From an uncultured Victivallales bacterium (lineage in GTDB: Bacteria; Verrucomicrobiota; Lentisphaeria; Victivallales; UBA1829), in the NCBI GenBank assembly GCA_944391115.1, contig CALXSJ010000002.1, positions 124,001 through 188,000 on the forward strand: a stretch of DNA of 64,000 nt, read 5' to 3'. The position numbers and the translations under genes were made by a program. Shown here piece by piece: positions 49,627-64,000 of the stretch. How positions within the stretch are numbered: position 1 is the stretch's first letter; every line of letters starts with the position of its first letter. The notes beneath the pieces are model-generated. The model was not told the DNA's origin. It did no database searches and saw nothing but the letters and a program-made list of their open reading frames with translations.

Positions 49627-51093
49627 CTACTCCTCCTTCAGCTGTTTTTCCATGAGTTCGAACTCCCGCAGAATGGATCTCCTTTGCTGTGGGAAATAGT
49701 GATTCACGGCAATGATGGTGCCCAGACCGGCAAGAAAGCCGGGAAGGATTTCATACATGTAGACTCCAAGTCCGGCGGCATACCAGGCGAGCATGACGAC
49801 TGTTCCCGCCGCCATGCCGCACAGCGCGGACTGCCATGTCGTTTTTCTGGAATAGAGCGCCATTAATACCACGGGTCCGAAAGCCGCTCCGAAGCCGCCC
49901 CATGCGAAGGTCACAAGCGAGAAGATCGTTTCATTCGGGTTCAGCGCCATGAGTGCGGCAATTACCGTGATCAGGAGCACAAAGAAACGGCTGAGGTGCA
50001 TCAGTTCTTTCTCGCCCGCGCGTTTGTTCAATACATTTTTGTAGAAATCTTCCGTGAGCGTGGAGGATGAGACCAGCAGCTGGGAGTCAATCGTGGACAT
50101 GATGGCCGCCATGATAGCCGCAAGAAGAACCCCGCCGAGCCATGGGTTGAAAAGGTTTGAAATCATGTAGATGAATACCTTCTCGGAGTTGGCTTTTGTC
50201 AGATTTTCATACATGGGAATGGCGAGAATTCCGATCACGACAGCCGCCGTAAGCGAAATCAGGACCCAGATCATGGCGATGGTGCAGGCCCGGGGAAGAA
50301 GCCGGACGGATTTGATGCTCATGAAGCGGACAACGATATGAGGCTGTCCGAAATAACCGATGCCCCATGCCATCATGGAAATGACTGCGAGGTATGGGGA
50401 GAGGCCTTCTCCCGCGGGGAGGAGGTTGAACGTGATGTTCCGTGTTTCGCATGCCGCCGCAATCGCTCCCGGCTCGAGACTTCGGAAGGCCATGACCGGC
50501 ACAATGACCAGCGCGAAGAACATCAGGAGTCCCTGAAGCATATCGGTCCAGCAGACCGCCAGATACCCGCCGAGAATCGTATAGCCGAGAAGCACCGCGG
50601 CGGAAATGCAGACTGCCCATTTGTAATCCAGATGGAACATGGACTCGAAGAGCTTGGCGGAAGCGACAAGTCCCGAAGCGGAATAGATCGTGAAAAACAG
50701 CAGGGTGATGATTGCCGCGAGAACGCGCAGAATTCCTGTCGGGTCACGGAACCGGCGGCCGAAAAAAGCCGAAAGAGTCAGAGATTTCGTCTTTTCCGTA
50801 TAGATCCGCAGGCGCGGCGCGACGATGAGCCAGTTGAGAAACGTCCCGAGAGCAAGTCCGATTGCAACCCATGCCTGATTGATGCCCGCCATATATACTA
50901 CGCCGGGGAGTCCCATCAGCAGCCATCCGCTCATGTCGCTCGCCTGTGCCGAGAGCGCCGTGACCCAGCTTCCCAGTCCGCGGCCTCCCAGCAGATAGGC
51001 GTCGACGTTCTGCGACGCCTTTTTGTAAAAATAGATCCCGACGGCAAACATGACCGCAAGGTAGAGCCCGAATGTAATATAGGTGGGAATCAT
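49627..51093 (-). CDS. putP: Sodium/solute symporter, PutP (proline) type
   Basis: 488 residues, about thirteen membrane helices of the SSS family. 'LLGGRGLGSWVTALSAQASDMSGWLLMGLPG' matches the Na+/proline site of PutP, as do 'INWLIVAPRLR'-like and 'YLAVCWTDMLQGLLMFFALVIVP'. It imports proline (or a close substrate) with sodium. Only a weak ribosome site precedes the ATG. It stands alone and convergent to the unknown gene at 48318. Confidence 0.9.
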   Translation of the reverse strand: MIPTYITFGLYLAVMFAVGIYFYKKASQNVDAYLLGGRGLGSWVTALSAQASDMSGWLLMGLPGVVYMAGINQAWVAIGLALGTFLNWLIVAPRLRIYTEKTKSLTLSAFFGRRFRDPTGILRVLAAIITLLFFTIYSASGLVASAKLFESMFHLDYKWAVCISAAVLLGYTILGGYLAVCWTDMLQGLLMFFALVIVPVMAFRSLEPGAIAAACETRNITFNLLPAGEGLSPYLAVISMMAWGIGYFGQPHIVVRFMSIKSVRLLPRACTIAMIWVLISLTAAVVIGILAIPMYENLTKANSEKVFIYMISNLFNPWLGGVLLAAIMAAIMSTIDSQLLVSSSTLTEDFYKNVLNKRAGEKELMHLSRFFVLLITVIAALMALNPNETIFSLVTFAWGGFGAAFGPVVLMALYSRKTTWQSALCGMAAGTVVMLAWYAAGLGVYMYEILPGFLAGLGTIIAVNHYFPQQRRSILREFELMEKQLKEE

Positions 51094-51384
51094 AACGGAT
51101 ATCCAGAAGGTTTTTGCATCAAACGGTTTTCCGGATGATGCGGGATGAAAGTAAAAGGGATCCGGAACAAAAAAGAACAGGAGCCTGCCCGGCAGATCCT
51201 GTCACAGCCTGTTCCCCGTGTTCCATGTCATTCGTTCCGGCATAGGACTTCCTCCCCGGACGGCGGCAGTACCGGATTCCGACTGTGCGATGTCTTTGCA
51301 TTTCAGAGATCCGCCCGGTGTTTTGTGATTGACCGTTTTGCGGAATTGTTTTTTTTCACGATTTTCTCTCCTGACGCTGATTGT

Positions 51385-51418
51385 GAAACATATGGATTCA
51401 GAGACTATAATATGTTTC
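51385..51418. repeat. Inverted repeat around a TATAAT box
   Basis: GAAACATAT (51385-51393) and ATATGTTTC (51410-51418) are perfect 9-base inverted arms, 16 bases apart, with TATAAT at 51406-51411 next to the second arm and TTGTGA at 51381-51386. It looks like an operator over a promoter; the gene served is unclear. Confidence 0.5.
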
Positions 51419-51835
51419 CGCGTAAAATCAAATCATGAAGAAAAGAAAGACGCTCCGGATGGATGTCTTTCCGGAACGCATCCCGGCAACGGGAATTTTT
51501 GTCCCTGCGTCAGGGAAGTGCGGCATTGCAGATTCCGGCGGAACGGTGGAAGCGGTATTTTCAGTTTCGGAGTGCATTCCGCCGCGGCGGAATGCAATGC
51601 TCTGCATGCGGTGCGGCTGACTCGGGAAACTGCTTTTCCGACGGAAAAATGCGGCGGATGCGATGCGGGATGCGTCGGCAGATCGGCTGAAGCGTCAGCG
51701 ATGGACAGGTCAGAGGGGAGGGGATGAAAAGAAGCGGCATGAATCCGTATTCCTTGCGAAGTCTCCCCGCATTGTTCCGGGGGCAGTTCTGATGTTCCGG
51801 GAACAGTTTTTTAAGGATATTCAAAATGTTCTCTC

Positions 51836-51863
51836 TTGAAAAGAAGAAGGTTTTATTTATATT
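51836..51863 (+). promoter_or_regulatory. Possible fucosidase promoter
   Basis: TTGAAA (51836-51841), 16-base spacer, TATATT (51858-51863), leaving about 210 bases of leader. Confidence 0.4.
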
Positions 51864-52078
51864 TGGCGTGGAAAGCATTGTGGAATCTGACCATGAAGAT
51901 GAAGCCGGTCTTGCATATATATATGTGCCTGTGAAGTGAAGTTCGCAGGTTTCCGGATGAGCAGTGCGCTTGGAATGGCATGACTTCGGGGGTGTTGCAT
52001 TTCCGCATTCCGGCAGGGAAACCGGAACAGGAGACGCCGCCGTGAAAAATTTTCTGATTTGAATGAAAGGAAAATATA

Positions 52079-53800
52079 ATGAGAACACAAAATGAAAATC
52101 CTCTGCTTTCCGGACTTAATTCCGGCAGAGTTCCTTCCGAACGGCTGCGGAAACGCGGGGATATGGAATGCTATGCCATTGTGCATTTCGGGTTGAACAC
52201 GTATGCGGACAAGGAGTGGGGATACGGCGATCTTCCGCCGGAACTTTTCAACCCTTCCTCGTTTGATGCGGATGCCATTGTACGGACCTGTCTGGAGGCC
52301 GGGCTCTCCGGTCTGATTCTTGTCTGCAAGCATCATGACGGCTTTTGTCTTTGGCCCACGGAAACCACATCCTACAGCGTGGCGTCCTCTCCCTGGCGGG
52401 ACGGGAAAGGCGACATGGTCCGGGAATTTTCCGAGGCCTGCGCCCGGCATCATATGAAGATCGGTTTTTATGTTTCTCCCTGGGACCGCAACCACCCCGC
52501 ATACGGCACGGCGGAATATCCGGAGATATTCCGCAGGCAGCTCCGGGAGGTCTATACCCGTTACGGCGAGGCTTTCGAACTCTGGTTCGACGGCGCGAAC
52601 GGAGGTGACGGTTACTACGGCGGGGCCCGGGAAAAGCGTTCCATTGACCGGGATTCCTATTATGACTGGCCCCGTGTCTGGAAAATGGCCCGGGAACTTC
52701 AGCCCAATGCCTTGATTTTCAGCGACATCGGACCGGATTTGCGCTGGGTTGGAAATGAAAAAGGCTTCGCGGCGGAGGATTGTTTCGGATGTTTTACTCC
52801 GCGCATGCCGGAAGGCTCCGGCGGAATTCCGTGTCCCGGCAGCCTGGACTCCGCCTTGAGCTCTTCCGGCGATGCGGACGGGCTGTATTATATTCCGCCG
52901 GAATGCGATGTCCCGCTCAGACGTGGCTGGTTTTACCATAAGTCCGAAGATGCCATGCAGCGCGGCACCGGCCTGCTGATCCGGATTTACCTCAGCTCGG
53001 TCGGTTGCGGCGGATTCCTGAATCTGGGGATTGCTCCGGGACCGGACGGCAGACTGCATCCTGCCGACATTGCCGCATTGAGGGCGTTCCATGAAGCGAG
53101 AGAAGCGCTCTTTGCCTCCCCTGTTTTCCGGCGCAAGTGTATTCCATGTGCCGGAGGCGCCTGCATGATTGAATTCGGGAATACGGTTTCCTTCAACCTG
53201 CTTGAAATGGCGGAGGAAATGGAGCGGGGCGAGCTTGTTTCCGGTTATGTGATTGAGCTTCGGTGCGGCGGCATGTGGAAAATCGTTCAGACCGGCAGGG
53301 CGATCGGCAGGAAGCGCCTGAAATACTTCCGGGATTCCCTGACGGGGGATGCGCTGCGGATCCGCATTACGGAGTCTTGCGGCGAAGTTCGCGCCTTGTT
53401 TCTTGCCTGTTACGATGCGCCGGCGGAATTTCTGAATGCGTCCGCTTCGGATGCGCCGGACCCGCGCAATACCACCAGCTATCGGAAGCTGGGTGCCGGA
53501 ACTGGAACGGACTGGGTGTACGATCTGGGAGAAAACATGAGATTTCGGGGATTCATCTTCACTCCCGATCCCGCGCTTCCTCCCGGAACGCCGGACCGCT
53601 ACGTTTTCGCCGTCGGCGGCGACGGAAAAATCTGGACGGAGATTGCGGAAGGGGAGTTTTCCAATTTGCGCGCAAATCCTGTCCCGCAGCTGGTGGAGTT
53701 TCCCGCCGTTGACGCAAGATTCATCCGTTTTTCGGCAACACGGATGCTGATTCCGGCGGAAAATATTTCCGGCGTGGATTTCGGCATTCTTCTCCAATAA
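52079..53800 (+). CDS. Alpha-L-fucosidase, GH29
   Basis: 573 residues, no signal peptide, so it acts on imported fucosides. GH29 motifs: 'YAIVHFGLNTYADKEWGYG', 'LILVCKHHDGFCLWPTETT', 'HHMKIGFYVSPWDRNHPAYG', nucleophile Asp171 in 'ELWFDGANGG', and 'GCGGFLNLGIAPGPDGRL'. After about residue 430 a beta-sandwich follows ('DWVYDLGENMRFRGFIFTPD', 'RFIRFSATRML'), F5/8 type-C/CBM32-like. AAGGA seven bases before the ATG. Likely removes fucose from host or dietary glycans, with the GH2 enzyme encoded next. Confidence 0.93.
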   Translation: MRTQNENPLLSGLNSGRVPSERLRKRGDMECYAIVHFGLNTYADKEWGYGDLPPELFNPSSFDADAIVRTCLEAGLSGLILVCKHHDGFCLWPTETTSYSVASSPWRDGKGDMVREFSEACARHHMKIGFYVSPWDRNHPAYGTAEYPEIFRRQLREVYTRYGEAFELWFDGANGGDGYYGGAREKRSIDRDSYYDWPRVWKMARELQPNALIFSDIGPDLRWVGNEKGFAAEDCFGCFTPRMPEGSGGIPCPGSLDSALSSSGDADGLYYIPPECDVPLRRGWFYHKSEDAMQRGTGLLIRIYLSSVGCGGFLNLGIAPGPDGRLHPADIAALRAFHEAREALFASPVFRRKCIPCAGGACMIEFGNTVSFNLLEMAEEMERGELVSGYVIELRCGGMWKIVQTGRAIGRKRLKYFRDSLTGDALRIRITESCGEVRALFLACYDAPAEFLNASASDAPDPRNTTSYRKLGAGTGTDWVYDLGENMRFRGFIFTPDPALPPGTPDRYVFAVGGDGKIWTEIAEGEFSNLRANPVPQLVEFPAVDARFIRFSATRMLIPAENISGVDFGILLQ

Positions 53801-53998
53801 CAAACAAATGAGTGAAATGATGACGGCCTGAAAAAGATGCCGGATGACGTCAGGTGATTCCGCCAGTTGCAATGCCGTTCCGGATGGTCCATGGCCGTGA
53901 TTCCTGTGGACGGCCGTTTTCCGGAATTCCGTTTATGAGGAACGGGGACGTTTCGCGGAATTTTCCGGAAGACTGGAAACATGGATGCTAGGAAAGCA

Positions 53999-54040
53999 AC
54001 ATTTGTCTTATTGAAAAAGAGCGGAGCCCGTATACATTAT
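53999..54040 (+). promoter_or_regulatory. Shared activator element with promoter, GH2-araC operon
   Basis: An 18-base element (53999-54016) ends with TTGAAA (54011-54016) as -35; -10 candidates are TACATT (54033-54038, spacer 16) or CATTAT (54035-54040, spacer 18). The 18 bases match 58235-58252 at 17 positions. Place next to the -35 box fits an AraC-type activator site. Confidence 0.55.
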
Positions 54041-54117
54041 TCCCGTTGTTCCAGCCTTCCGGAATCAGATTCCCGGAATGCAGAAACAAGACTGTAAAAT
54101 CAAAAAAGGCCATTTTG

Positions 54118-54141
54118 CTGTTTTCACAGGACGGAAAACAG
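54118..54141. repeat. Inverted repeat in the GH2 leader
   Basis: CTGTTTTC (54118-54125) and GAAAACAG (54134-54141), perfect, 8 bases apart. Could be an operator or an RNA hairpin in the leader; no T-run follows. Confidence 0.45.
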
Positions 54142-54445
54142 GCGATGACACCTTTGTTTGGGAATACGGTGCGGGAATATCATTTTCCTGCGGAAGAGAC
54201 GCCGCTCCGGGCGCGGAACGCAGGCCGGAGACGAAGTCCGCTCCGTCCGGCGGAAATTCCTGCGTCTGAAGGATGCACCCCTTCCGCTCTTGCCGCGTGC
54301 GGCATCCCGTTTTCACCGGGAAGGCGGTTGATTTGCGATATTCTCCGGGGTTATCCTCAGGGAGCGGTCCTTCGGCGCTGTGAATGCATTTGAAACATCA
54401 GAATAACGTCATGATTTCTCATGTGTGAAACGAGGTGAAGATCCA

Positions 54446-57271
54446 ATGTTCGAGGCAGGAAAAACAACGGAGCTCAACGGAGTCTGGGACTTTTATTACG
54501 ATCCTCATCCATTTCTTCCGGGATCGACGGCGCTTCCGGAAAAGGCGCTTTTCACCGGACGGATGGCGGTCCCGGGATACTGGGACGATCATTACGACCT
54601 TTTCGACGAGGAGGATTTCTTTTCGCTGCACGCCCGCTTCAATCCGGATTACCGGAAAGTGCATTTTCCGATGGGACATACCCAGCTGCCCCATGCCAGC
54701 AGTTCGTTCCTGATCGGAAGCGGCTATTACCGCAGGAATCTGGCCGTCCGCTTTCCCGAAGGGGCGCATGCCGTTCTGCATGTCGGGCCCGCCATGTGGG
54801 GCTGTTCCGTCTACTGCAACCGGAAGCCCGCCGGCGTGCAGACCGGATACAGCACGGGAACGGATTTTGATCTGACCGGTCTGCTGCGCTCCGGCGAAGA
54901 GAACGAACTTCTCATCGTCGTCTGCAATGTCCGCGACGACGGCGGCGCCTACTGCCGTCTGGACGGGTCTCATGACGGCGAGGATTTCGGCACGCGGGCC
55001 GGGCAGCACCGCGGACTTGCCGCCCAGGGATATCAGGCAGAGCGGGCCGGGATCTGCGAGGGCGTCACGCTCCGTCTGACCGGAAGCGGAGTCATTGCGG
55101 ACTGTTTCACGTATGCCGATGCCGGATGTCCCCGCTGGAAGGCGGAGCTGCGGAACGGGACGGGAAAGACACTGGCCTGGCGCGTTTCCGACGGGGAACG
55201 GATTCTGGATTCCGGCTCCTTCGCCTGTTGTTCGGACGAGGCGGATTTCCGGACGGCTCCTCTGCCGGAACTCTGGTCTGACCGGACGCCGAGACTGTAT
55301 GACTTTACGCTGGAGCTTTTTGACGGGGAAACCCTTTCCGACCGCAGGACATGGAAATGGGGGTTCCGCCATGCCGTCTGTGACGGGCTGCGCATTCTGC
55401 TGAACGGGAAACCGACGTATTTCCGCGGTGTCACCGAACACTGTTATTTTCCGGAAACCTGCAACCCCCATTCCGACAAGGGAAAATATCTGCACGATCT
55501 GGGCATGCTGCGCAAGGCGGGATTCAATTTCATCCGCTGTCATACCTGGTGTCCGCCGGAAGCCTTCTATGAAGCCTGCGATGAACTTGGGTTTCTGGTT
55601 CAGACGGAACAGCCTTCCGTGTATTCCCCTGCCGAAACGGAATCGATCCTCCGCATGATCCGGCGTCATGCCTGCGCCGTGATCTTCTGCGAGGGCAATG
55701 AAAAGAAAATTTCAGACAGGGTTTTCGAGCGTCTGCGGCAGGTCGCTTCGATGGTGCGGAGACTCGCCCCCGGCATGCTGTTCAATCCGCAGGAGGCCAT
55801 GCGCGGCGTGGAATACGATTTCATCGAAGGGCGGAACATCGAACGGAATCCGATTCCCCATGACGCGGAGCGCCTTGCGCAGATCGCGGAGTTCTCCGAT
55901 CTTTACGGTTCGCTGAGCGGCGGCTATTTCAGCTATCTGCATGATGTCTTCCCGGGAGTTGCGGAGGTGGAGAGACAGCACTCCTTCTACCGGAAGCCCT
56001 GCCTCAGCCATGAGATCGGCATTCTCGGCGGATATCTCAATTTCGAACTGGAGGCGCGTTACGAAGGCACGTTCATCGGGCAGGATCTCTTCCGCGCCGT
56101 CCGGGAGCATCTGCGGAAAAACAATGTCTATCAGTATGCGGATCTTTATTACCGGAACAACTGCCGCTTCATCGCCTCGCTCCGCAAGCAGCTGATGGAA
56201 AACATCCGTTCGTGTCCTTCCATCACGGGATATGACTTTCTGGGAGGCATCGATACGCACTGGCACTTCTGCGGCTATCCCTGCGGCGTGCTCAACGAGT
56301 TCTACGAGGAAAAATACGGAGAGACGCTCCGGGACGTTCTTCGCTACAACGGGGAAAGCGTCCTGCTCTGCGGCGCCTCCAACCGGCGGAACCGTTTTGC
56401 CGGGACGGAGTTCCGGGAAAAACTTCTGATTTCCTGTTTCGGAGCGGAACCGGAGGCGGACGGCGAGCTGTTCTGGTCCTTCGCCTCCGATGACGGGAAT
56501 GTGATTGCGGAGGGACGGCGGTCCTTTTCGGGCATCCCCGCCGGAACTGTCCGTGAGCTGGAGGAGATCGCGTTTCCCCTGCCGGAAAGCGCCCGCCCTT
56601 ATTCCGGAGTTCTCCGGGCGTCGGCGGAATGCGGCGGGACGGTTCTGGAAAATTGCTGGACGTTCTGGGTGTTTCCCCGGAAAGAGGTGCTGCCGGGGAA
56701 TCGGGTCCGCTGTGCGGAGACTCTGACAGACGAGGTGATCGGCTTTGCGGAAGACGGCGGCTCCGTGCTTCTGCGTGGCGGATTTCCGGCCGGAACCAGA
56801 ACGGAGACGTTCCGGCCCCATACTTCGGGCCGGACGCTGGGCCATGCCGGTATTCTCATTCATGAACACCCTGTCCTGCGGGATTTTCCGCACGAGGGGT
56901 TCGGCGACTGGCAGTTTTTCCCCATGATGAGCGGCGCCGTGTCGATGATTCACGATTCCGGCATGCCGGAATTTCATCCGGTCATTGAGCTGATTCCCTC
57001 GTTCAAGCTGGTCCGGCGGAAATCCATGCTTTCCGAATTCCGCGTCGGGAAAGGCCGGATCCTGATGTGCGGACTGGCGCTTTCGGATTCCGATCCGGCG
57101 GGGCGGTATCTCCGGGGTGCGCTTCTGGAATATCTGAACCGTGGCGTATGGGAGGAGGCTCCGGAATGGGAAAGCGCCTCCCTGCGGGAAAGAATCCGCC
57201 GGGATCACGGAGAAAGATTCCAGGAGATCCGTCTTGACGAAGGGGGACGCATCCGGGAGAAGAGACAGTGA
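54446..57271 (+). CDS. Glycoside hydrolase family 2 (beta-galactosidase/glucuronidase-like)
   Basis: 941 residues, no signal peptide. Sugar-binding jelly roll (about 1-210, 'LNGVWDFYYDPHPF', 'GSGYYRRNLAVRFPEG'), an Ig-like domain, then the TIM barrel from about 320 ('ILLNGKPTYFRGVTEHCYFPETC', 'FNFIRCHTWCPPEAFYEACDELGFLVQTEQP'). Acid/base Glu419 in 'CEGNEKK' and nucleophile Glu523 in 'LSHEIGILGGY' are in place. C-terminal beta domains follow. The sugar cannot be told; sequence differs from LacZ and UidA. Start 54446 (GAGG ten bases before); GTG 54425 lacks a ribosome site. Lies 26 bases before the AraC gene. Confidence 0.9.
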   Translation: MFEAGKTTELNGVWDFYYDPHPFLPGSTALPEKALFTGRMAVPGYWDDHYDLFDEEDFFSLHARFNPDYRKVHFPMGHTQLPHASSSFLIGSGYYRRNLAVRFPEGAHAVLHVGPAMWGCSVYCNRKPAGVQTGYSTGTDFDLTGLLRSGEENELLIVVCNVRDDGGAYCRLDGSHDGEDFGTRAGQHRGLAAQGYQAERAGICEGVTLRLTGSGVIADCFTYADAGCPRWKAELRNGTGKTLAWRVSDGERILDSGSFACCSDEADFRTAPLPELWSDRTPRLYDFTLELFDGETLSDRRTWKWGFRHAVCDGLRILLNGKPTYFRGVTEHCYFPETCNPHSDKGKYLHDLGMLRKAGFNFIRCHTWCPPEAFYEACDELGFLVQTEQPSVYSPAETESILRMIRRHACAVIFCEGNEKKISDRVFERLRQVASMVRRLAPGMLFNPQEAMRGVEYDFIEGRNIERNPIPHDAERLAQIAEFSDLYGSLSGGYFSYLHDVFPGVAEVERQHSFYRKPCLSHEIGILGGYLNFELEARYEGTFIGQDLFRAVREHLRKNNVYQYADLYYRNNCRFIASLRKQLMENIRSCPSITGYDFLGGIDTHWHFCGYPCGVLNEFYEEKYGETLRDVLRYNGESVLLCGASNRRNRFAGTEFREKLLISCFGAEPEADGELFWSFASDDGNVIAEGRRSFSGIPAGTVRELEEIAFPLPESARPYSGVLRASAECGGTVLENCWTFWVFPRKEVLPGNRVRCAETLTDEVIGFAEDGGSVLLRGGFPAGTRTETFRPHTSGRTLGHAGILIHEHPVLRDFPHEGFGDWQFFPMMSGAVSMIHDSGMPEFHPVIELIPSFKLVRRKSMLSEFRVGKGRILMCGLALSDSDPAGRYLRGALLEYLNRGVWEEAPEWESASLRERIRRDHGERFQEIRLDEGGRIREKRQ

Positions 57272-57297
57272 TGCGCCCGGCGCAAAGGTGAAATCCT

Positions 57298-58098
57298 GTG
57301 AAACCGCTGACATACATTGCGCAGGCATACCGTGTGGGCTCTTCCGGAGAGGGGATTTGCCGGGTTCTCTCCTGCGGTCACTATTGCGCGGAGAAAGGTT
57401 TTCAGGACAGAATCGCGAAAAAGAATTTTCTGGAAATCTTCTGGTGCGTGAAGGGATACGGCTGTCTGGAACGCGACGGACGGGAATTCCGGCTGCTGCC
57501 CGGCGAAGTCTGCTGTTATTTCCCGGGCGAGCGGCACAACGTCCATACCGATGCCCCGAGCTGGAATTACTACTGGATGGGGCTGGACGGGCCTTATCTT
57601 CAGGAACTGATTCGGGCTTTCCGCCTGAAAAACGAGCCTTGGACGGCGGGAAAATGTCCGGAGGAACTCTTTGAAAAGATCATGCGGGCGCTTTCGGATC
57701 TCGGCATTCACGGACAGCATCAGGCATCCTGTTTCGCCTATGAGCTCCTGAGCCGGATTGCAAACGGCCCGTTTCAAACGGCGAACGATCAGATCGAACA
57801 GCTGAAGCGGAAGATGGAGAAGGAATTCAGCCGGCCCGATTTTTCCATTCTGAAGGAAGCGCGCAGAATCGGCGTTCACCGGTCCACGCTGTACCGGCTG
57901 TTTGTCAGCCGGACCGGCATGTCGCCGCAGAATTATCTGATCGCATGCCGCCTGCGCGAGGCACTTGTGCGCCTTCATGCCGGGGAACCCCTCAAGACAA
58001 TTGCCTTTGAGTGCGGATTCTCCGATCAGAATTATTTCACCCGGGTATTCCGGAAAAAATACGGCATTCCGCCCGCGAAATTCCGGCGGAGCTGCTGA
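57298..58098 (+). CDS. AraC family transcriptional regulator
   Basis: 266 residues. An N-terminal cupin-like ligand domain ('FLEIFWCVKGYGCLERDGREFRLLPGEVCCYFPGERHNV') and C-terminal double helix-turn-helix (about 165-265: 'ILKEARRIGVHRSTLYRLFVSRTGMSPQNYLIACRLREALVRLH', 'IAFECGFSDQNYFTRVFRKKYGIPPAKFR'). GTG start with AAAGGTG seven bases before. Co-transcribed with the GH2 gene and likely senses a sugar released by the enzymes. The shared 18-base elements at 53999 and 58235 are its best candidate targets. Confidence 0.93.
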   Translation: MKPLTYIAQAYRVGSSGEGICRVLSCGHYCAEKGFQDRIAKKNFLEIFWCVKGYGCLERDGREFRLLPGEVCCYFPGERHNVHTDAPSWNYYWMGLDGPYLQELIRAFRLKNEPWTAGKCPEELFEKIMRALSDLGIHGQHQASCFAYELLSRIANGPFQTANDQIEQLKRKMEKEFSRPDFSILKEARRIGVHRSTLYRLFVSRTGMSPQNYLIACRLREALVRLHAGEPLKTIAFECGFSDQNYFTRVFRKKYGIPPAKFRRSC

Positions 58099-58234
58099 AC
58101 TGCCGGATGTGCGGCTCTCCTGCCGTATGAAACGGCTCCTCCGCGCTTTCCGCAGCGGAATCTCCGGCGTGCCAATGCCGTCCGGGCGGCAAATGGTAAA
58201 TTCCCTCTTTTGCGACATGCATCCTATAAATAAT

Positions 58235-58275
58235 ACATTTGTCTCATTGAAACGGAGGAGTCCGCAGTGTATTTT
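58235..58275 (+). promoter_or_regulatory. Shared activator element with promoter, copy 2
   Basis: The 18-base element (58235-58252) again ends with TTGAAA (58247-58252); 17 bases on comes TATTTT (58270-58275). It drives the decayed gene that starts at 58378 and possibly the Gfo/Idh gene behind it. Confidence 0.55.
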
Positions 58276-58377
58276 CCGGAAAGATGTCAGCGGGGTTCCC
58301 GGATCTGCCGGGGGCACTTCTCCCGTGCGAAGACATTTTGCAGACTCAAAAAACAAGACACAAAAAGGGAGCGGGGA

Positions 58378-58920
58378 ATGAAGAACTGGCTGCTGTTCAC
58401 ACTCGGCATGGCTGTTGTCTTCCGGTTTGCGGCGCATTCCGCGGAGCTTGTCCGGAAGGGGTGTCCGGTCTCCGGGACCCTGATTGATCCGTCCGCGCAT
58501 CCCGCGGTCCGCCATGCGGCGGAGCCAGGCTTTTTTACGGGAAAAGCAGCGGCGGGCGTCTTGCCGTCGGAACAGTTCCGGGCAGGAGGATTCCGTGAAA
58601 AATCATCCTTGTGACTCCGGATGCGGCAATCAGGAAAACGCATTTCTCCCGGTGTCCGGAGTTCGTTATGCCTCCGGGACGAGAAGAAGAAATACATCAG
58701 GGACTGGGGAAAGGATGACGCCTCCCGCGGGGGGACACGGAATAAAGCCGGATTTTCCAATCCTTCTCGGCGGTGTTTTTTGATCCTTTTCATCAGGACG
58801 ATGCAATTTGCGCCTTCCACTTTTTCAACTGTCCGACCCATCTGGAGATGCTTCGGTATCTGATGAAGATGATGGAGGGGAAACGTCTGAAACGGGAAAT
58901 CTCAGGAAAGGAAGAGAGCC
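58378..58920 (+). pseudogene. Decayed secreted gene (N-terminal and possible C-terminal remnants)
   Basis: A good start (GGGAG six bases before ATG 58378) opens a signal peptide ('MKNWLLFTLGMAVVFRFAAHSA') and about 25 residues ('LVRKGCPVSGTLIDPSAHPAVRHAAE') that look like the first strand of DUF4838/GH67N-type hydrolases. The frame then turns to unrelated sequence and stops at 58614. Near 58771-58926 another frame reads smoothly ('FFDPFHQDDAICAFHFFNCPTHLEMLRYLMKMMEG') like the end of a protein. The middle is missing or scrambled. A remnant of a large enzyme is the simplest reading; a short secreted protein of 78 residues is the alternative. The whole gap between the AraC and Gfo/Idh genes (58099-58920) holds nothing else except the promoter. 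Confidence 0.4.
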
Positions 58921-60063
58921 ATGTTTGAAAAAAAAGATGTCCGCGTTGCCGTGATCGCCGCGGGCGGCCGTTCCCAGGGAGTGATGGAGCGTCTGCTGCG
59001 CGATTCGGAGCGTCATGTGAGAATCGTTTCCGTTTATGATCCGGATCCCGCAGTTGTGGAGCGGGCGCTTGCACGATGGGAGACTCCCGGAGCCGCGCGC
59101 TGCGCCTCCATGGAGGAGGCGGTCGCCTTTCCCGGCGTGGAATGGGTGATGGTGTTTTCTCCCAACGCCTTTCACAAGGAGGCGATCCTGGAAGGCTTCC
59201 GCATGGGGAAAAATGTTTTTTCCGAGAAACCGCTTGCCACGACATTGGAGGACTGCCGTGCCGTTTATGACGCCTGGCGCGCTTCCGGAAAACTTTTCGC
59301 CACCGGGTTCGTGCTCCGCTATTCGCCGGTTTACCGGAAAGCGAAGGAACTTCTGGATTCCGGTTCGTTCGGACGCCTGCTTTCCGTGGACGCGACGGAG
59401 AATCTCGCTCCGGCGCACGGGGGCTATATCATGCAGAACTGGCGGCGGAAAAAATCGCTGGCCGGCCCGCATCTTCTGGAGAAGTGCTGCCATGACCTTG
59501 ACATGCTCAATTACCTCATCGGCTCCCTTCCCACGAAAACAGCGGGATTCGGAGGCCTCGACTGTTTCATCCCGGAAAATGAGCCTCTTTTCCGGAAATA
59601 TCCCGCCGGGACGTATGATTCATGGGAGGATCCCCACCGGACGAAGGAATCGCCTTTTTCCTCCGACAAGGAAATCCGGGACACGCATGTGGCGCTGTTT
59701 CTTTACCGGAACGGCGTAAAAGTCCAGTTTCAGGCGACCTGCTGCAATATGATTCCGGAACGGCGGATGTACTTCTCCTGCACGGAGGGAACGATCGTTC
59801 TTGATCTTGTGCGCAGCGTCCTTTCCTGGCGGAGGATCGGAGAGGAAGCCGAAAGCGTGATCCGTTTCTCCGCGGACGGTCATGGCGGAGGCGACAATAC
59901 CCAGACTATCGAGCTGTATGAATGCATGTGCACCGGGAATCCGCCCCGCTCCGGCGGATCCGAGGGGCTGGAAAGCGCGGTGGTCGCTCTTTCCGCGGAT
60001 CTTGCCATGGAGGAGCTGCGCGTGGTCGATCTGGAAGAGACATGGCGGGCGCTCGGACGTTGA
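58921..60063 (+). CDS. Gfo/Idh/MocA family oxidoreductase
   Basis: 380 residues, no signal peptide. N-terminal Rossmann domain with a divergent glycine motif ('VAVIAAGGRSQGVMERLL' instead of GxGxxG), 'WVMVFSPNAFHKEAILEGFRMGKNVFSEKPLATTLEDC' (EKP lysine present), and the C-terminal alpha/beta domain with 'LLEKCCHDLDMLNYLIG' (His-Asp pair). NAD(P)-linked oxidation or reduction of a sugar or cyclitol is the family's job. AGGAAAGGAAG precedes the ATG. Plus strand, behind the decayed gene. Confidence 0.9.
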   Translation: MFEKKDVRVAVIAAGGRSQGVMERLLRDSERHVRIVSVYDPDPAVVERALARWETPGAARCASMEEAVAFPGVEWVMVFSPNAFHKEAILEGFRMGKNVFSEKPLATTLEDCRAVYDAWRASGKLFATGFVLRYSPVYRKAKELLDSGSFGRLLSVDATENLAPAHGGYIMQNWRRKKSLAGPHLLEKCCHDLDMLNYLIGSLPTKTAGFGGLDCFIPENEPLFRKYPAGTYDSWEDPHRTKESPFSSDKEIRDTHVALFLYRNGVKVQFQATCCNMIPERRMYFSCTEGTIVLDLVRSVLSWRRIGEEAESVIRFSADGHGGGDNTQTIELYECMCTGNPPRSGGSEGLESAVVALSADLAMEELRVVDLEETWRALGR

Positions 60064-60121
60064 GGGCACAGGCCGGCGGATTCGTCTTCCGGAGCAGAGT
60101 TTCCGGCTGTTTTGAGATGCA

Positions 60122-61369
60122 TTATTCTTCCGCGAATCCGGAGGAATTCCGCTGAATCAGTTTCATGGCATGCATGACGAACGGAATCAGAATCAGGAAT
60201 CCGCACGCCGCGACGACGTACACGCTCCGGACTCCGAAGTGATAGATTATCGTTCCGCCGAACGGCGCCGCCAGCAGGAGTCCGCAGGTGCGGGAGGTCG
60301 AGCTCCAGCCGAAAATCTGCCCCCGCCGTTCCGGGGGCGAGGCTTTCGAGAGCATTGTCAGAAAGACCGGTTCCAGTCCTCCGGCCGTGACAAATGTGAA
60401 GAAGCGCGAGACTCCGAGCACGGCAAGCGTCGGCGCGAATCCCTGGCCGAGCACGAACAGGGCCGACATCACGATTGCCGGAAAGGCCACTTTCCCGGGA
60501 GAGAAGCGATCAACCAGATAGCCGACGCACACTCCCGCCACAACGCCGCCGCATGCCGCCAGCGCGCTGATCCAGCCGGTATGGAGCTCCGTATTGACAT
60601 GTCCGGCGATATGTTCAACCTGAAGCGCCAGATATGCCTCGTCGAACCGCCGCGCGAATGCCATCAGCAGAAAGAGGGAAAGGATCATCCAGACTGTTTT
60701 TCCGAAATCCGGCAGATGGAGCCCGGGTTTCATCCGGGGTGTTTCCTCCGCCGTTTTCCGTACCGGGGCGATCGGATTCTCCCGTACGAAAAGCAGGACG
60801 AGAATTCCACCAACCAGATACATCACTCCGCAGAAAAGAAATGCTGTCGTATATCCGAAACAGTGCACGATCGTGGCGCCGGCGAGGTAGCCGAGCATGT
60901 TGCCGCTCCAGACCACGGAGCTCAGGGACCCGAGCGCGAATCCGTGCTTTTCCTCCGGCGTCGTGGAGACGATCAGCGTCTGCGCGGCGTTCACCGTTCC
61001 TGAACACATGCTGGTCAGGAACCGTATGCCGATCAGTGTCCAGATGCCCGGCGCGAACGCCATGCAGGGCATCAGGAGCGCGGCTCCGAAGCTTGCCCGC
61101 AGCAGCATGAGCTTCCGTCCATACCGGTCGGCGAGCAGCCCCCAGATCGGGGTGAACACCGCGAAACTGGCCATGCCGAAGAAGTAGAACATTGAAACAT
61201 ACCAGCCCCGCAGGTTCGGGTCTTCGATCCCGAATTTCACGCGCATGTAGACTGGAATGAAGGGCATTGCCGCCGCAAATCCGGCCAGGGAAAGCAGCTG
61301 GGAAAGCCAGATGAAGAAGAGATTCCTCTTCCAGCTGATCTTCCCGATTTCCCGCGAGGAAACACTCAT
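60122..61369 (-). CDS. MFS transporter
   Basis: 415 residues, twelve hydrophobic segments. The loop 2-3 motif 'GLLADRYGRKLMLLRAS' and the second-half 'YLVDRFSPGKVAFPAIV' are typical of the major facilitator superfamily (drug or sugar/H+ type). Start 61369 overlaps the stop of the Gfo/Idh gene upstream (ATGA); in-frame codons up to 61522 are antisense-like and unneeded. Probably imports the compound that the co-encoded oxidoreductase modifies. Confidence 0.92.
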   Translation of the reverse strand: MSVSSREIGKISWKRNLFFIWLSQLLSLAGFAAAMPFIPVYMRVKFGIEDPNLRGWYVSMFYFFGMASFAVFTPIWGLLADRYGRKLMLLRASFGAALLMPCMAFAPGIWTLIGIRFLTSMCSGTVNAAQTLIVSTTPEEKHGFALGSLSSVVWSGNMLGYLAGATIVHCFGYTTAFLFCGVMYLVGGILVLLFVRENPIAPVRKTAEETPRMKPGLHLPDFGKTVWMILSLFLLMAFARRFDEAYLALQVEHIAGHVNTELHTGWISALAACGGVVAGVCVGYLVDRFSPGKVAFPAIVMSALFVLGQGFAPTLAVLGVSRFFTFVTAGGLEPVFLTMLSKASPPERRGQIFGWSSTSRTCGLLLAAPFGGTIIYHFGVRSVYVVAACGFLILIPFVMHAMKLIQRNSSGFAEE

Positions 61370-62496
61370 AGCCTGACCCAGCTCCTTTTCTCCGCTGATT
61401 CCCTGACCTTTTCCAGAAGGTATTGCAGATAGACGCCATGTTCCAGAGTGGGGCCGAGGGGGATTCCCCGGTAAACCGACTCCAGGAATGTGTAGAGGCA
61501 GTGGACATGTCCGCGCATCCATCCCATCGGGGCTTTCGGCGTCGGGAAGCCGGCCGGTTTGTCATAGCGCTGCCCGCAGTCGATGGCCGTCCAGCCCCTG
61601 ATCCCGCCGAGAGGTGCGGATTCCGCGGCGCGGTCATAGTAGTACAGCCTGTGAAGATCCATCGGCGCCATTCTGAGCGCGCCTTTGCTGCCGTAGATTT
61701 CAAAGCTCATTTCATCCTCCGTGCCCGTGGCGATTTTGGAGGCGTTGATATTGCCGTATGCGCCGTTGGGCAGGCGCACGGTTGCAAGCATGTTGTCTTC
61801 CGCGTCGACCCGGACCGTTTCCGAGGGGTTCTGCGCCGAAGGACGCTCCGGATATGCGGTGTGCGTAACGGCGGAGAGTTCGCTGAATCCGCCGAGCAGA
61901 TGGTGCATGAGGTCGAGCACATGACTCCCGAGGTCCGCGGCGACGCCGCCGCCCGATGCGCCGGATAGTTTCCACTTGAGCGGCGTTTCCGGATCGGCGT
62001 TTCCGGAATGCAGATAGGAGGCGCGGAATTCAAGAATTTCGCCGATTTTCCCTTCGTCCATCAGCTGTTTTGCCCGGAGCGTGACCGGAAAGAAGCGGTT
62101 CTGAAGCGTCATCTGCGAAATGCCCTTGTAATTCCGGAGCGCCTCCCGGATCAGCAGGGCCTCTGCCCAGGTCGCCGTGAGCGGCTTGTCGCAGTAGATG
62201 TGCTTGTTGTGGCGGATTGCCGACAGGAGCGCCTCGCAGTGGAAATTGTTCGGCGTGCAGATGTCCACAATGTCGATGTCCGGATTTTCCGTGATTTCCC
62301 GGTAGTCTGTCACCGCGTGGACTGCGCCGGCCTGCAAAGCGCTCTTTTCCGCAGTCTCCGCTCTGGAGGTGCAGACATGCGTGATTCTGCTGCCGAATTC
62401 CCGCTGATCGTAAAAGAGCGGAATGTTCCGGTGCCCGTAGGCGTGAACCTTTCCGATGAATCCGAATCCGATGATGCCGACCGTGTAGATTTTCAT
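61366..62496 (-). CDS. Gfo/Idh/MocA family oxidoreductase, co-encoded with the MFS transporter
   Basis: 376 residues: 'VGIIGFGFIGKVHAYGH' (NAD-binding GxGxxG), 'IDIVDICTPNNFHCEALLSAIRHNKHIYCDKPLTATWAEALL' (the DKP lysine), and in the C-terminal domain 'GVAADLGSHVLDLMHHLLGG' (catalytic-type Asp/His). Also 'GGIRGWTAIDCGQRYDKPAGFP', a loop seen in inositol-type members. First gene of a two-gene minus-strand operon; the gap of 311 bases upstream is shared with the plus-strand gene at 62808. Confidence 0.93.
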   Translation of the reverse strand: MKIYTVGIIGFGFIGKVHAYGHRNIPLFYDQREFGSRITHVCTSRAETAEKSALQAGAVHAVTDYREITENPDIDIVDICTPNNFHCEALLSAIRHNKHIYCDKPLTATWAEALLIREALRNYKGISQMTLQNRFFPVTLRAKQLMDEGKIGEILEFRASYLHSGNADPETPLKWKLSGASGGGVAADLGSHVLDLMHHLLGGFSELSAVTHTAYPERPSAQNPSETVRVDAEDNMLATVRLPNGAYGNINASKIATGTEDEMSFEIYGSKGALRMAPMDLHRLYYYDRAAESAPLGGIRGWTAIDCGQRYDKPAGFPTPKAPMGWMRGHVHCLYTFLESVYRGIPLGPTLEHGVYLQYLLEKVRESAEKRSWVRL

Positions 62497-62807
62497 CCGT
62501 TTTTCCTTGTTTTCAGTTAAGGTCTTCTTTTCCGGAATTTAAATCGGGATTTGCTTTTTTCCAGAACATTTTGGAAAATTTCTTCTTTCCTTACTGCTTT
62601 CCAATTCCGGTATCCGGTTCATATCGCCGGCGCCCCGGCGGGGCAAAACCTGTCTCCATGCGGGAGGCGTTCCTCCGCGCATCGGAGACGGCGCAAAAGC
62701 GCAGGAAGTTTTCCCGTTGAGGGTTGACATTTTCGCTCCAGAGGGTAAATTATACATTGTGTCATGAATTGTTTTATCCAAAATCACAAACAGGAGAGCG
62801 TTGCATC
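62497..62807. other. Divergent control region
   Basis: 311 bases without a gene between two divergent Gfo/Idh genes. It carries the plus-strand promoter at 62724-62751. A matching minus-strand promoter could not be singled out. Confidence 0.5.
62724..62751 (+). promoter_or_regulatory. Promoter of the Gfo/Idh gene at 62808
   Basis: Perfect TTGACA (62724-62729), 16-base spacer, TAAATT (62746-62751), about 50 bases of leader. The 18-base AraC-type element is absent here. Confidence 0.6.
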
Positions 62808-64000
62808 ATGGCGGAAAAAGTCAGAAAGAGTACGGCGAAAACACCTGCGAAACCCGCGGCGAAGAAGGTGGTCAATCTGGCCTTCATCGGCTATGGAATT
62901 CAGGCGCGCACCGTGCTGGTGCCGAATTTCATCAAGCAGGAGAATGTTGTCGTCAAGGCCGTTTGCGACTGCGACCGGGTGCGCCGGGAAGCGGGCGTGA
63001 AATATGTCAATGACTATTACAGGAAAAATAAGAAATCCCGCCTTGCCAGATGCGTGGCCGTCGCTGATTTCCGCGATATCATCCGTGACAAGGGAATTGA
63101 CGCGGTCTGCATTGCGACGCCGGATCACTGGCATGCCTACATCTCCTGCGCCGCGATGAAGGCCGGAAAAGATGTCTATTGCGAAAAACCGCTGACCTAT
63201 TCCGTCGAGGAGGCGCTTCTTCTCGTTCAGGCCCAGAAAAAATTCAAGAGCGTTTTCCAGACCGGCGCCATGCAGCGTTCCAGGCGCGAATTCCGCACCG
63301 CCTGCATGATCGTCCGCAACGGTTTCATCGGCGACGTCAAGTATGTCGACTGCAACTACGGCAACGCGTCCGCCCAGAACAATACGGATATCGCCAACTT
63401 CCCCGCGAATCTTGGCGGTCCCTCTCATCCGCATCGCTTCTTCTGCCAGTGGAACGGACCGGAAAAGAAGGTTCAGGACATCGCCACGGAATCCGCGCCC
63501 AACAAGGATGTCGACTGGGACATGTGGCTCGGTCCGGCGCCCTGGTCGCCCTATTCCGACCAGTGCGCACCCCGCAAGGTCGCCAATTTTTATCCGATGT
63601 TCTGGCGTTTTGACGACAATTACGGAACCGGCTACAATGGAGACTGGGGCGCCCACCATCTTGACATCGCGCAGTGGGGTCTTGATCTTGACAAGTCCGG
63701 CCCGGTGAAGGTGATCCGTTCCGACGAGCCCCATTCGACAAATCCGCTGCATGGCGGGCGCCGTCAGTTCGGAATGAAATTCGTTCTCGCCAACGGCTGT
63801 GTCATTCAGCACAATCCGTTCAGCACCTGGGGAACGGTTTTCTATGGAACCAGGGGGATTGTCGCGGTCAATCGCGGACGCATCGCCGTGTGGACGGGCA
63901 GAGGCGTCAAGCCCACGCCTGAGGTCCGCAAGGCTCTGGAGGACGTCTCCTTCAGCAAAATGAAGAAGATTGCCGCATCCGTCGGCGAAGATTACGGTTT
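62808..64000 (+). CDS. Gfo/Idh/MocA family oxidoreductase (3' end missing)
   Basis: Open from ATG 62808 (AGGAG eleven bases before) to the window end, at least 397 residues. After a Lys/Ala-rich start ('MAEKVRKSTAKTPAKPAAKK') comes the Rossmann domain 'LAFIGYGIQARTVLVPNF', 'IDAVCIATPDHWHAYISCAAMKAGKDVYCEKPLT' and the C-terminal domain with 'NYGTGYNGDWGAHHLDIAQWGL'. This pattern is that of the large Planctomycetes/Bacteroidetes-type members, but without the usual Tat signal: the protein should stay in the cytoplasm. Confidence 0.92.
   Translation, partial: MAEKVRKSTAKTPAKPAAKKVVNLAFIGYGIQARTVLVPNFIKQENVVVKAVCDCDRVRREAGVKYVNDYYRKNKKSRLARCVAVADFRDIIRDKGIDAVCIATPDHWHAYISCAAMKAGKDVYCEKPLTYSVEEALLLVQAQKKFKSVFQTGAMQRSRREFRTACMIVRNGFIGDVKYVDCNYGNASAQNNTDIANFPANLGGPSHPHRFFCQWNGPEKKVQDIATESAPNKDVDWDMWLGPAPWSPYSDQCAPRKVANFYPMFWRFDDNYGTGYNGDWGAHHLDIAQWGLDLDKSGPVKVIRSDEPHSTNPLHGGRRQFGMKFVLANGCVIQHNPFSTWGTVFYGTRGIVAVNRGRIAVWTGRGVKPTPEVRKALEDVSFSKMKKIAASVGEDYG

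Follow-up and report, generated by a model that had tools for sequence, protein, structure and literature searches.

The window analysed here is a stretch of 64 kb of DNA from an uncultured Victivallales bacterium. Its sugar locus has the order site 1, GH2, araC, site 2, where the sites are two similar sequences that we read as operators, each at a predicted promoter. The features, all on the forward strand, are these:

53975..54016 (+), putative operator 1 in full, with ACA-N4-T cores at 53979-53986 and at 53999-54006 and the -35 hexamer at its end
54011..54040 (+), predicted promoter 1 (-35 TTGAAA at 54011-54016; -10 either TACATT at 54033-54038, spacer 16, or CATTAT at 54035-54040, spacer 18)
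54446..57271 (+), GH2-type glycoside hydrolase gene (PF02836 above cut-off), first operon gene downstream of operator 1
57298..58098 (+), AraC-family regulator gene (AraC_binding domain and two-helix-turn-helix C-terminal domain)
58211..58252 (+), putative operator 2 in full, with ACA-N4-T cores at 58215-58222 and at 58235-58242 and the -35 hexamer at its end
58247..58275 (+), predicted promoter 2 (-35 TTGAAA at 58247-58252; 17-bp spacer; -10 TATTTT at 58270-58275)
58379..58928 (+), gene debris (signal peptide and DUF4838-type N-terminal piece at 58379-58612; CapA-like C-terminal piece at 58776-58928)
58921..60063 (+), Gfo/Idh/MocA oxidoreductase gene (PF01408, PF02894), the first gene after promoter 2 that is intact

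The AraC protein has an N-terminal sugar-sensing domain (PF02311, E 4e-12) and a C-terminal domain recognized by PF12833 (E 3.2e-24) and PF00165 (E 1.1e-14), all above the cut-offs. The sequence that follows promoter 2 had been described as a decayed secreted gene. It is indeed broken and begins with a signal-peptide-like start, but it contains the remnants of two different genes and not of one. The first piece resembles the N-terminus of DUF4838-type proteins (weak matches in genome G051, E 0.003-0.009), the name being given by likeness to a DUF4838 protein, and the second piece resembles the C-terminus of a CapA-like protein of ~415 amino acids (E 6e-5 to 4e-7), a name judged from sequence. 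Pfam reported no match for the debris pieces of 58379-58928.

The original prediction was of an 18-base element shared by the two promoters, and its positions and degree of identity proved exact: ACATTTGTCTTATTGAAA (53999-54016) and ACATTTGTCTCATTGAAA (58235-58252) agree at 17 of 18 bases, with TTGAAA as the final six bases, equally placed, in each copy. TTGAAA by itself is uninformative, as the bare hexamer occurs 52 times in the window against 48.7 expected, a frequency that by itself would suit a fortuitous resemblance or a repeat, whether mobile or dispersed. The 18-mer behaves differently, with two matches at up to three mismatches in the window, where 0.06 were expected and where 0 of 100 shuffles reached two. 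Throughout the 3.66 Mb of the genome, only the copies at 53999 and 58235 were found at 0-2 mismatches, while the five genomic matches with exactly three mismatches are at chance level (three in a reversed-pattern control). When one mismatch was allowed across 36 family genomes, single extra matches appeared in other genomes. An Rfam scan of window positions 50000-64000 gave none at the gathering thresholds. These counts make an origin by chance or from a repeat hardly credible, and the conservation of the same position across genera, described below, already contradicts it.

Ungapped comparison of the two window copies extended their likeness about 20 bp further upstream of the 18-mer, where 12 of 20 bases are identical and ACATGSATSCTAKRAA stands before ACATTTGTCTYATTGAAA in both. 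The 18-mer thus makes up the half nearer the promoter of a longer element built as a tandem direct repeat. Between site 1 and the start codon of GH2 (54446), which lies downstream, there are about 430 bp. The hexamers of promoter 1 are kept in the sister species, and those of promoter 2, together with their spacing, are identical in genome G013.

The sister species is the closest genome (G001, contig CALXRI010000006.1, also an uncultured Victivallales bacterium), which has orthologues of the GH2 (93%) and AraC (88%) genes. Upstream of its GH2-araC pair it retains ACATGGATGCTA..AAAGCAACATTTGTCATATTGAAAAA...GTATACATTAT, so that site 1 is conserved, and further downstream, in the leader, the alignment is no longer good. 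This leader measures about 400 bases in the window (54041-54445, promoter 1 to the GH2 start), more than 500 in the sister species and less than 100 in G013; that of the window matches no Rfam family. Synteny with the sister breaks just upstream of operator 1 (window ~53950, L038:7279); beyond the breakpoint the window carries a GH29-type fucosidase gene, and the sister carries sugar isomerase-like and DUF4838 genes. Between araC and the Gfo/Idh/MocA gene, the sister has a gap of ~200 bp with no second site and no debris.

Among the relatives, clear GH2 orthologues or fragments were found at ten further loci. Within the stretches that were read, the GH2 gene has an adjoining AraC homologue only in G001 and G013, and a scan of the collection added one locus, L107. 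The element is present in both G013 and L107, which belong to other genera of Lentisphaeria and have the AraC homologue beside the same GH2; in G013, GCGACAAATATGCTATACATAATACATTCCTTTCCTTGTAAAATCAAGTTCCCGCATGTATTTT aligns gap-free with window site 2. At six GH2 orthologues with no adjoining AraC homologue no match to the element was found, and upstream scores were at background. These comparisons also bear on whether the two elements are one promoter that was duplicated locally and needs no regulator. They share a locus, the sister species lacks the region of site 2, and site 2 may have originated by a copying event. However, the likeness of the window copies is patchy, since the flanks and the 8 bp between the half-site blocks differ, and the same patches are kept, on the 20-bp repeat, at araC loci of other genera, which makes duplication alone a very improbable explanation.

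To look at the element across the family, a weight matrix from four sites (the two window sites and those of G001 and G013) was run over both strands of 76 AraC loci. At 29 of these, including one training locus (G013), the best match fell within 300 bp upstream of araC and pointed away from it, compared with 3.8 loci expected. The aligned sites give the consensus TGCRACAAAATTACCnnnnATAATACATnnTTCCTCTTG-17-TATAAT, and Victivallis vadensis (L124/L017) is among the loci with the predicted operator. In most operator-bearing loci the divergent gene starts with the same GH4-like sequence; Pfam was run on this gene for the locus of this genome only (C33), where GH4 was confirmed. We refer to these loci as AraC-GH4 divergons, and those of Victivallis vadensis DSM 14823 and of this genome (G000:C33) show the same consensus, TGCRACAAAATTACC...ATAATACATnnTTCCTCTTG-17-TATAAT. 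Their regulators, about 40% identical to the window AraC, form the clade closest to it, while their half-site letters differ in detail from those of the window. They also differ in arrangement: as in most site-bearing relatives, araC is divergent from its target, here of GH4 type, whereas in the window araC follows GH2 in the same direction and is itself followed by a second operator. In the verrucomicrobial AraC-GH4-type divergon of Geminisphaera colitermitum TAV2 (L123) we noted what may be a form of the operator, CGCAACATCAGTGCTA...CACAACGCTGCTATTG, a hint that it is more widely distributed.

A held-out matrix of 11 sites from other genomes, from which every GH2-type site was left out, was then run on the 64-kb window. 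It ranked position 58211 first with a score of 28.9, compared with 5.5 for the best unrelated match and a block-shuffle maximum of 16.0. Position 53975 came second with 8.5, which is inside the shuffle range (shuffle mean about 9).

The repeat structure is seen in 17 aligned sites, whose invariant columns include A5 C6 A7 T12 and, with identical letters precisely 20 bp further on, A25 C26 A27 T32. Column autocorrelation gave a single peak of 4.88 at 20 bp, with no other shift reaching 1; by permutation, P is 0.0004 at 20 bp and 0.014 when shifts 6-30 are all considered. A -10-like hexamer is in register across the 17 sites, and the proximal half-site block abuts the -35. Read as an inverted repeat, the site reached at best 2.4, compared with 4.9 for the direct repeat, and this reading was rejected. 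A motif-free search of the 250 bp upstream of the 76 araC genes revealed an excess of direct repeats with spacings of 20 and 21 bp (z 10.0 and 9.6, respectively), and after removal of the 15 core-clade loci z values of 8.6 and 9.4 remained. The control downstream of araC gave z 1.1 at 20 bp and z 3.1 at 21 bp; inside araC the 20-bp value was negative and the 21-bp value was z 5.7, which is probably codon periodicity. Outside the core clade, araC genes have tandem repeats of their own, spaced 20-21 bp and followed by a TATAAT-like box, for example TGCATCAAAAGT...TGCATCAAAAAC; such clade-own repeats were seen at L035, L130, L131, L156, L158, L023, L036 and other loci. It looks as if each AraC clade had its own half-site inside one common architecture.

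A maximum-likelihood tree was built for 78 AraC proteins, 28 of which have the site; 22 of these 28 group in a single 25-member clade (support 99/94). Mapped on this tree, the site label requires 10 changes, compared with a shuffled mean of 23, and 0 of 500 shuffles were as low; the test is not independent, as part of the clade supplied training sites for the motif and the threshold was set with the scores already in view. The 76-locus matrix scan and the motif-free repeat test are less affected by this.

The search for further sites in the own genome used a profile built from the 17 sites by sequence alone. The leading matches were the C33 AraC-GH4 divergon (E 3.7e-12), site 2 (1.2e-8) and site 1 (5.8e-7), followed by matches with E 0.0013 and 2.7. 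As the three leading matches are members of the training set, the informative part of this result is the absence of further sites. Over the 36 family genomes, the E-values leave a gap between 6e-7 and 3e-4. The own-genome match with E 0.0013 (G000:C4:80231) was set aside as a further operator, there being no credible gene downstream. The wider glycan regulon that a genome scan had been proposed to uncover did not appear: the own-genome scan gave no sites upstream of other glycan genes, only the two window sites and the paralogous AraC-GH4 divergon, and the regulator looks to act locally.

The genome holds a large set of AraC-family genes (at least 42 scored matches among 79 candidates in 3.66 Mb). 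One paralog (G000:C4:5791-6576, L039) is 60% identical to the window AraC and its recognition helices are very similar. No operator was found within its 16-kb stretch, and with such helices it would be either an orphan or acting on the same sites; it could cross-bind the window sites. So large a set and so similar a paralog give some room for another regulator, encoded elsewhere, to be the protein that binds the element. However, the element follows the adjoining AraC gene across genomes and along the AraC tree, and the own-genome sites in the profile scan lie solely beside AraC genes, and we regard binding by another regulator as improbable. The AraC link, originally proposed from proximity alone, gains support from the same tracking, and the shared site very probably belongs to the regulator gene between the two promoters.

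Our reading, with a probability of about 0.8, is that both elements are operators of the AraC regulator encoded at 57298-58098 and act by class II activation. Each operator would be a tandem direct repeat of the half-site ACA-N4-T, 20 bp from repeat to repeat, spanning roughly -70 to -35, with the downstream half-site abutting the -35 hexamer. Upon binding of a sugar ligand, the regulator would occupy both half-sites and contact RNA polymerase, and the promoter would be turned on. From site 1 this would drive the GH2-araC operon, amounting to positive autoregulation, and from site 2 a transcript through the gene debris into the Gfo/Idh/MocA oxidoreductase gene. The proposed class II geometry was borne out at the level of the predicted features, as the operator ends at the -35, consists of a 20-bp direct repeat and is followed by a -10-like hexamer 16-18 bp on. 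The 20-bp repeat and its position against -35 and -10 fit the AraC/XylS class II activators. Conservation, tracking with the AraC neighbour, the held-out motif ranks and the repeats at 20-21 bp make this reading well supported; from it we infer binding, the inducing ligand, the transcription starts and the sign of regulation, activation rather than repression.

Several known systems can be compared with this one. At araBAD of Escherichia coli, the sugar regulator AraC uses two direct half-sites beside the -35 with 21 bp spacing; that promoter also has looping of the DNA and, upstream, a site for CRP. MtlR of Pseudomonas fluorescens is a sugar-responsive activator that uses 15-bp blocks at -72 to -58 and -50 to -36 of PmtlE (PMC4514859). 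As in the window, there are two similar blocks upstream of the -35, but the MtlR blocks are 22 bp apart, have another half-site sequence and were demonstrated experimentally, while the window operators are read from sequence. According to a study on XylS at Pm (PMC5481539), two tandem helix-turn-helix proteins recognize a pair of 15-bp direct repeats there, and the study, together with a title in its reference list, reports that the XylS and RNA polymerase sites overlap. XylS/Pm, from the Pseudomonas putida TOL plasmid, is like the window in having two direct repeats for an AraC/XylS-family protein; it differs in its half-site (TGCA-N6-GGTA, compared with ACA-N4-T at a 20-bp repeat distance), its benzoate-type ligand and the 321-aa length of its regulator.

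AraC-family proteins are able to act as repressors as well as activators, and the operators might instead be real sites where the AraC protein, by sitting on the -35 region, represses the promoters or alternates between repressing and activating them. The operator does abut the -35, and sites 1 and 2 have a fair TTGAAA that might work unaided. However, tandem repeats ending at the -35 match the activators XylS and MtlR, and at many sister sites the -35 hexamers are poor (for example TTGGGA and TTGTCG), which suits activator dependence. We consider repression unlikely, though less so than the other alternatives, and favour class II activation by the adjoining AraC protein.

In the open-licence papers searched, we found no published description of operators of the AraC-GH4 divergons or of AraC regulators of this lineage. 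Neither the operator sequence nor its recurrence in the lineage seems to have been described, while the kind of system is known. We lean towards a more general rule, that the AraC regulators of Lentisphaerota, of which a genome may have dozens, share one promoter architecture of tandem half-sites 20 or 21 bp apart directly upstream of the -35, most often placed between araC and the target gene that diverges from it, with half-site letters that drift with the clade. If true, the local regulons of uncultured Lentisphaerota would be readable from their genomes alone. Genomes of this lineage hold large sets of AraC genes, many of them beside glycoside hydrolases, and a conserved operator would link particular targets, GH2 or GH4-type genes, to one clade of regulators and make regulon prediction possible in uncultured bacteria. 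The cultured relative Victivallis vadensis offers a direct test of the operator model. The switch at this locus would be an ordinary sugar switch, yet one that may reveal a DNA-binding code recurring across a little-studied bacterial group.
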